Shown here in pieces: positions 31,383 through 34,300 of a stretch of DNA of 64,000 bases (position 1 is its first letter; each line of letters starts with the position of its first letter). Origin of the DNA: Citrus sinensis. Its lineage: Eukaryota; Streptophyta; Magnoliopsida; Sapindales; Rutaceae. The stretch spans positions 24,705,001-24,769,000 of the forward strand of contig NC_068564.1 of assembly GCF_022201045.2 (NCBI RefSeq), in the 5' to 3' direction. A program made the translations under genes and the position numbers. A model generated the notes under the pieces. The model saw nothing but the letters and a program-made list of their open reading frames with translations. It did not search any database and was not told the origin of the DNA.

Positions 31383-34300
31383 TTAACGAGCCTCTAACAC
31401 TGATAAGGTGATTTCATTGGTCGAAGCTGAGTACTGCCTGCTTGATGAGGACTCTGATTCAGGTAGATTTCTTCCTGTGAAAAATCCAGGCTGCTGAGGT
31501 TGAGGCAGTGACCTTTCGCCACTCAACATCAGAACCACAGATGACATGTTTGGCCTGTCTTCTGGTCGTTGTTGTACACATAAAAGACCAACCTGAATGC
31601 ATCGTAATGCTTCAGAGAAAGAGCAAGAGTTATCTAGTGATTGATCTATTAGTTCCAAAGGTCTTTCTTCTATCCACAGTCGCCAAGCCTAAAACAGATT
31701 GAAAAAGAAAAGATGCCATAATTAAACATCTCACTCTTTGTAGAGATTCTATAATTATATGATTAGTTTTGGCCTAATTCTTTGTTACTCAGTTTAAAGA
31801 CTTACATGTCCAAGAAGGTTGTGATCATGATCAGCATGGTTAAATCCTCTGTTTTTCTTTCCACAAATTATCTCTAATACCAAAACACCAAAGCTAAAGA
31901 CATCGGATTTTACTGAAAATAGTCCATCTATTGCATACTCAGGAGACATGTAGCCACTGAAAAAGTTGGTGCAAAACAATTGGTGAGTTCACTGATTATA
32001 TAAAGAAAATAAAAACAAGCTCACTTACTATGTTCCAACAACTCTTTTAGTGTTAGCCTCAGTTTGATCTACCCCAAATGATCTAGCCAGGCCAAAGTCT
32101 GAAATCTTCGGGTTCATCGTATTATCTAATAAAACATTACTGGCTTTAAGATCTCTGTGTATTATCCTCAGCCTAGAGTCTTGATGAAGATAAAGAAGCC
32201 CTCTAGCAATTCCAGCAATAATGTGGCTTCGTTTGCTCCAATCCAATAATTTGCTTCTGGTTGTATCTGAAAATTCATCATCCTAGGTGAGATCAGCCCT
32301 TTGCTTAAGTTCTGAAAAAGAGAATATGAAAATAATTACTGTAAGACAAGAATGACTCGAATTTATGGAATATCAAACCAAAAATGAAGTAGTCCAGGCT
32401 TTTGTTGGGCAGGTATTCATAAATTAACATCCGTTCATCTCTTTGAGTGCAACAACCAAGAAGCTTCACAAGATTTCGGTGCTGAAGTTTAGCAATCAAA
32501 AGGACTTCATTTTTGAACTCCTCCATTCCTTGTCCAGAGCCTTTTGAAAGCCTTTTAACTGCAATTTCTTGCCCCTCTATCAACATTCCCTACGAATCAT
32601 TGGTCACAGAAGTAAGCTTCGTTTTACATGAAAATGGTATAGACTAATCACATAATATAATGTTACCTTGTAAACTGGTCCAAAACCACCCTCTCCTAAC
32701 TTGTTTTTCTCTGAGAAATTATCCGTGGCATTAGCTATGATCTTCAAATCAAATATTGGTAGTTCCATTTCTTCTTTTTCGTTGCCTTTGACAATGTAAT
32801 TCAATTTATGGCTGTCATCAGTCTTCCATGAAATTGTAGGAATCTTCAAAACTAATGAAGAACGCTCATTGCTATGCATAAATGTTTAATTTGGTGCAAA
32901 AGTTTCCTCTATCTGATACTTAATGAAATCAAAATGGTGTTTCATGATCATGATTCATGAGCTTATTTACCTTTTTCTTTCTTTTTTTTTCCTTTTCGAT
33001 GAATCCTCACCTAAGTAAGGTGATTTTATTGAAATAAAATAAAAATGTAGCAGCAAAACATAGAAAAGAGGTAATCACACCTCAAACTAGCCACACAAAA
33101 GTTACAAGATGTAGCTGAACTGATGCCACATTATTACAGTAATTTACCTTGATTACTGTGTTTTTTCCGCCTGTACATGAGCCCTCCTATGAAAATAACT
33201 GCTGTAGCCAATGATATGGATGTTATTATGATCATCACTTGCTTTTTATTCTTGGATTGTCTTCTTCTCTCAACATTATCTGAAAAGTTGTAATAGAGTT
33301 TCAAAAATATATATATTCTTGAGTAGAAACACAATAGATTCAACAGAATTAGCAAGTTTGGAGCAAATAATGTCATTAACAATATACATCAGAAATTCTA
33401 AATTTACGCAGCATCTGCAAAGAAATTACCCTAGATTTAATAGATTGCTGTTAGTAAAAAGAGCAGAAGGAAAAGAAGGGGATACCTAGTTCTGATGCAG
33501 CCATCCGTATAAAAAGGTCTTGACCACTCTCAGGAAGTTCTTTGATGTCAATCAGGTCATGGAACCAAAGCAAGCACCCACTTCCTCGTCCTCTGACATC
33601 CGCATTGGCATATGCTGTGCAAGAACAATTCTTAGAACACAACTCCTTGCATTCCCAAAGAGTGATGTTCTTATCAACCCAAGAGAAACGTGTATCAGGC
33701 AATTTCACTGCTTTGTGCTCCAGAAAGCCATCTCCATGTTTGCAATCCAATGGAGTCCTGCGAACACACCCACCAGACTTATATTGCATATCCCATTCTC
33801 GTTGAGAATTGGGTACAAACCCTTGCAAGCATTCACATTCAGGAGAGTTAGAATTGATGTTACAACTAGCATATGCCCCACATAGTGCATAACTGTCACA
33901 CTGATCAAGCGTCACTCCAGAAAACCGAGAGAACAATGTCCAAGTCTTCGTTCTTTCCATCCACGTGTAACGCTGCACAGTACCTGCCGGGTTTATCACC
34001 ATCCTGGAAGGCACTGAACTATTACTGAGATTATACGTATAAAATGCCTCTTTCTCATTTGACACATATTCAAATGTATATACTGGATTTGGTTGGAGCT
34101 GAGGAACCCCCGTCCAATGAAGACCGTTCCACAAGCCTGCTCTAAATGTTATTATAGAATTCTTTCTAAGAACTAGTTGCGGAATACCACGAGGATCTAA
34201 CCCATATGTGAAATCACCACGAGCAGGGTCGTCTGTGCTCTTCCAGGACGATAAAAACCTGTTCAGACCAGTACCCAAGTTTATTCCTAATTTCATACCT

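Follow-up and report, generated by a model that had tools for sequence, protein, structure and literature searches.

The window, meaning the whole 64-kb stretch of DNA that was analyzed (C9:24705001-24769000), contains gene D, a predicted receptor kinase gene, together with three of its nearest paralogs, and belongs to a genome of 299.7 Mb in 11 contigs. We take this genome as Citrus: among nine terpene-synthase places retrieved from it, one (C5:9424300-9425700) has a frame that over 73 residues is identical to 5uv0, the (+)-limonene synthase of Citrus sinensis.

31383..34773, minus strand: gene D, 7 predicted exons, 836 residues
33148..33279, minus strand: exon 2 of gene D with the transmembrane segment, placed by GT-AG borders and paralogs
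32667..32851, minus strand: exon 3 of gene D as predicted with a new acceptor, 24 nt longer

The model of gene D holds 2,511 coding bases, with the sole stop of the predicted exons at its end and a start codon of our own choosing. We observe Pfam matches to B_lectin, S_locus_glycop, PAN_2, kinase, and DUF3403 in the encoded protein, whose ectodomain is related over its length to SRK8 and SRK9 (PDB 6kyw, 5gyy). Together with a transmembrane segment, assigned by eye from exon 2, the B_lectin, S_locus_glycop, PAN, and kinase domains place the product among the S-domain (G-type lectin) receptor kinases. Judged by exon 3 (best 150 of 480 candidates scored), the nearest paralogs are genes E, F, and G, inside the window at 37 kb, 46 kb, and 62 kb, and gene H, outside it at C9:24774901. 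Exon-3 peptide matches number at least 147 genome-wide, again among the best 150 of 480 candidates scored, and many of them, in both orientations, lie at C9 ~24.2-24.95 Mb, which marks this region as a large receptor-kinase cluster. A genome DNA search with exon 2 returned its self-match only, though three paralogs that are 73-75% alike lie in the window, so that misses of this kind carry little weight. The 3' end of gene D is adjoined by an LTR retrotransposon (18336-30572), in which direct repeats (18770-19141 versus 30000-30371; 372 bases, 96.2% alike) flank gag-pol-like frames that were judged by eye.

With respect to the border of exon 2 and intron 2, gene D carries two perfect copies of AAGGTAAAT in sense orientation (minus strand, 33150-33142 and 32973-32965), with 168 bp between them.

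33142..33150, minus strand: target-site duplication copy 1, AAG/GTAAAT, the original donor, GT at 33147-33146
32974..33141, minus strand: 168-bp insert, LINE 3' end in sense to gene D, A-rich tail from about base 145
32965..32973, minus strand: target-site duplication copy 2, AAG/GTAAAT, the duplicate donor, GT at 32970-32969

The duplicated 9 bp are donor positions -3 to +6, i.e., the last three bases of exon 2 and the first six bases of intron 2, in agreement with the first-pass annotation, which had described a duplication spanning the exon end and the GT donor and had named splice junctions at 33148 and near 32971; these are the final exon bases ahead of the two GTs. The -3 to +6 stretch of a donor is the one that pairs with U1 snRNA, and since the two donors are identical over all nine bases, no score computed on these bases separates them. 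In the 64-kb window, the 9-mer is found four times on the minus strand, always at an exon-2 donor (twice in gene D, at 46936 in gene F, and at 62406 in gene G), and two times on the plus strand. The leading AA may be part of the A-rich tail, and the duplication is thus 7 to 9 bp long.

None of the four paralogs contains the insert. At the same donor site, genes F and G each have a single AAGGTAAAT, as the earlier annotation had claimed, while gene E has AAGGTTAGT and gene H has ATGGTAAAT; its question of whether empty sites in relatives lack the 9-mer, when put to the paralogs, thus returns the exact word in two of the four and an altered form in the other two. Once the insert and one copy of the repeat are taken out, gene D and all four paralogs align over the site, the exception being 13 additional bases in gene D. 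These lie in a CATGA-like repeat beside the duplicate donor (32925-32964) and could form a small hairpin. Exact words of at least 9 bases across random point pairs 177 bp apart (±4) occurred in 141 of 200,000 draws, and on this frequency and the empty paralogs we reject a chance 9-bp repeat.

Matches to the insert lie at six further genome locations, some of which are LINE 3' ends, and the best-matching pieces found agree with it at 76-85% over portions of its length. Insert bases 18-156 match other copies and bases 1-17 are unmatched, with a 35-base core present at three genome places, gene D included, at up to 3 mismatches; the final 24 bases consist of A and G only (A at 19/24, interrupted). 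RVT_3 scores above the cut-off in two of the relatives. In the C7 copy, the RNase H frame (E 8.1e-8) stops 133 bases ahead of the tail match, and in the copy at C9:13.18 Mb, it (E 3.6e-9) stops 2 bases ahead of the tail match; in the same orientation and farther upstream lies a weak RVT_1 match, which falls short of the cut-off (E 0.0013). The latter copy was found via coding searches; the genome search scores the best candidates only. Two further frames scanned among the insert relatives gave no Pfam match. Since the RNase H frames of the relatives adjoin the matching tails and the insert has an A-rich end, we identify it as a LINE 3' end; as far as its sequence tells, it is a 5'-truncated LINE made up of the 3' end and an A-rich tail, and the LINE tail that the first-pass annotation placed in intron 2 between two 9-bp copies is upheld. 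We infer target-primed reverse transcription as the insertion route. The nick-site bases (TC/AAGG in sense), compared by eye, match TT/AAAA weakly. Taken together, sequence and paralogs identify the structure as a LINE insertion with a target-site duplication. An introner was also considered and rejected, given that intron 2 is present in E, F, G, and H without the insert and that the core is found at just the three places mentioned. Elsewhere in the window, a LINE remnant with zf-RVT and RVT_3 (51115-51969), after which GGTTCGGTT-type repeats come, showed no match to the insert.

The other end of intron 2 is changed as well, a point that the first-pass annotation had passed over.

32852..32853, minus strand: new AG acceptor, gene D only
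32828..32829, minus strand: ancestral acceptor position, AT in gene D, AG in E, F, G, and H
33134..33136, minus strand: TAA stop reached without use of the upstream donor

Gene D has lost the ancestral intron-2 acceptor, which reads AT here and AG in all four paralogs. Situated 24 nt upstream of it, the new acceptor (CATTAG/TTTTGAAG, of only moderate pyrimidine richness) arises from an A-to-G change found in gene D only, with A in 4/4 paralogs; compared with the paralogs, gene D is also without 26 to 27 nt between the new AG and the old acceptor position. With the donor duplicated and the acceptor AG lost and replaced upstream, intron 2 of gene D is altered at both ends, and its length from the upstream donor to the new acceptor is 296 nt, versus 160 nt in gene E. 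All remaining exons and GT-AG borders of gene D are intact. In gene F, four extra bases are present at the exon-3 donor (ACAGGGTGGGTAAC, 46600-46650), and the donor there likely shifts to GTGGGT.

We paired each of the 21 AGs between 32964 and 32693 with both donors. The upstream donor yields the full frame with 8 of them, one intronic and seven in exon 3, the latter at the cost of coding sequence (one is TTTCTCAG at 32711). The AG at 32853-32852 is the only intronic one that keeps the full frame, and the predicted product is then an open 836-residue receptor kinase. The earlier claim that the upstream donor keeps the reading frame therefore holds with this acceptor but requires a new one, because the ancestral one reads AT. 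From the duplicate donor, the full frame is reached with 0/21 acceptors; both this donor and a retained intron 2 lead, whatever the acceptor, into HSNQGKLL and then the stop at 33136-33134, at most 14 nt past the old exon end. A longer exon with LINE sequence, the other outcome anticipated for the downstream donor, may thus exist as RNA, but since the stop follows GKLL with 21/21 acceptors, no long LINE-containing protein would result. The GKLL-ending product is predicted to have 477 residues, with the ectodomain and membrane segment and without the kinase, and its RNA would likely be a target of nonsense-mediated decay.

Two further features of the insert bear on how intron 2 may be processed.

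33025..33030, minus strand: AATAAA in the insert, in sense, putative poly(A) signal
33136..33159, minus strand: possible hairpin, ACAGTAAT / ATTACTGT, whose 8-nt loop holds the upstream donor; may be chance

Because the AATAAA is in sense, poly(A) addition within the intron is possible; the intronic retrotransposon of RPP7 contains poly(A) sites (PMC8116057). In the hairpin, the first bases of the insert pair with exon 2 in an 8-bp stem and the duplicate donor remains unpaired. Folded over 36 nt, it has a z of -4.1 (as good in 2 of 200 shuffles), and over 61 or 101 nt, a z of -1.5 (as good in 16/200 and 14/200 shuffles, respectively), and the window contains 81 perfect 8-bp stems with 3- to 12-nt loops. 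In plants, splicing can be blocked by a hairpin that encloses a donor. We regard the one around the upstream donor as a possible lead only.

The coding sequence of gene D was compared with that of its paralogs, with codons gapped in any copy dropped, the first exon of gene G truncated where the window ends, and exon 3 counted from 32827. Against each of the four paralogs, gene D has a dN/dS of 0.20-0.24 over exons 3-7 and of 0.28-0.32 over exons 1-2. Of the single-base changes private to gene D, 6 are replacement and 18 silent over exons 3-7 (355 codons), and 21 are replacement and 25 silent over exons 1-2 (440 codons). For E, F, G, and H, in this order, the corresponding gene-specific replacement:silent counts are 4:12, 5:10, 2:8, and 7:15 over exons 3-7 and 4:11, 7:11, 5:9, and 12:20 over exons 1-2. 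These coding comparisons indicate that the kinase of gene D has been under purifying selection, a result that is compatible with a recent loss of function. In the ectodomain, replacement changes make up a larger share in gene D than in any of the other four genes, and this part of the protein may be under relaxed or diversifying selection.

The explanation that we favor, and hold to be somewhat better than even, is that of a tolerated LINE insertion, in which splicing would chiefly join the upstream donor and the shifted acceptor and minor truncated products are possible. A 5'-truncated LINE inserted across the border of exon 2 and intron 2, and the 9 bp that it duplicated coincide exactly with the 5' splice site. 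The upstream copy, which retains the old exon context, would be used as before, and so the LINE would be removed within a longer intron. With the old AG gone, the new AG 24 nt upstream would be used, adding a predicted eight codons beside the membrane, and the main product would be a full-length receptor kinase. The duplicate donor or the AATAAA of the LINE may give rise to minor GKLL-ending, kinase-less transcripts. On this account gene D probably still works, with the counterpoints that the missing old acceptor may be a sign of recent decay, that the new acceptor is only moderately rich in pyrimidines and competes with seven frame-keeping AGs inside exon 3, that the ectodomain replacement share is high, that the nick-site match is weak, and that the hairpin could possibly hide the upstream donor.

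Some of the same observations are open to other readings. Gene D may be a young pseudogene or a kinase-less receptor, with most of its RNA mis-spliced, keeping intron 2, or ended at the LINE poly(A) signal, and with the 477 residues of lectin domains, membrane segment, and GKLL tail as the product. We consider this a real but lesser possibility. It accords with the lost acceptor, with the sense AATAAA inside the insert, with the ectodomain replacement share, with a retained intron that reaches the same stop, and with the 119-nt intron that remains when the duplicate donor is joined to the new acceptor, 119 nt being a usual plant intron size. It fits less well with the intact state of the other exons and their GT-AG borders, with the presence of an in-frame acceptor that only gene D has, and with kinase exons that look constrained, even if such constraint is compatible with recent loss. 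The two fates could also be combined, with intron 2 acting as a switch between a full-length kinase (upstream donor) and a membrane-bound, kinase-less GKLL decoy (duplicate donor or LINE poly(A) signal), after the LINE had duplicated the donor and a new in-frame AG had taken over from the acceptor; we think this unlikely.

It is quite improbable that the duplicate donor dominates, with the upstream donor held in the hairpin loop and the purine-rich tail before the duplicate serving as a putative exonic enhancer. The 8-bp stem, its z of -4.1 at 36 nt, and the unpaired duplicate donor agree with such a role, but the fold weakens to a z of just -1.5 at the longer lengths, the window contains 81 such stems, and dominance of this donor would abolish a kinase that shows constraint. 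Finally, there may have been no insertion at all, the 168 bp being ancestral and lost from the paralogs or the repeat having arisen by chance. The comparison covers four paralogs only, which leaves some room for this, but all four are empty with matching flanks, an exact 9-bp repeat is rare among random pairs, and the insert has both an A-rich end and LINE relatives, which makes the idea hardly credible.

As LINE insertions go, the one in gene D is ordinary in kind and unusually exact in its position, and general views of splicing or retrotransposition are unchanged by it. What it offers is a natural test of donor competition, in which two 5' splice sites with the same nine positions lie 177 nt apart in one intron and the single-donor paralogs serve as controls. 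Gene D also illustrates how a LINE hit on a splice site can be tolerated, namely, because the duplication leaves the original donor in place. With its acceptor shifted as well, intron 2 provides a modest example of an intron remodelled under constraint.

Literature searches on LINEs duplicating a splice donor found no earlier report of the gene D site. Among known systems, the S-locus receptor kinases SRK8 and SRK9 (6kyw, 5gyy) are related to gene D in the ectodomain, and nothing speaks for a self-incompatibility role of gene D. The canine merle allele of PMEL17 (PMC7349775) likewise carries a poly(A)-tailed retroelement where an intron meets an exon, but there it lies at intron 10/exon 11 in reverse orientation, whereas the element in gene D lies at the donor and in sense. 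Another intronic retrotransposon of an immune-type gene is COPIA-R7, in intron 1 of Arabidopsis RPP7 (PMC8116057), which can likewise provide poly(A) sites; it is an LTR element of large size whose poly(A) sites have been tested, in contrast to a 168-bp LINE tail with an AATAAA only. Introners (PMC9860276) share with gene D a target-site duplication that bears a splice site and an element whose removal leaves the mRNA unchanged, but they generate introns anew across many genes and belong mostly to the DNA type, whereas in gene D, one LINE tail sits on the donor of an existing intron. With L1-like retroposition in dicots (PMC4838847), gene D shares an A-rich 3' tail, a short target-site duplication, and a site that is present only once when there is no insert. 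The two differ in that a LINE tail, rather than a retrocopied gene, has landed in gene D, in that the nick site of gene D, TC/AAGG, departs from TT/AAAA, and in that the duplication in gene D falls exactly on a splice donor.
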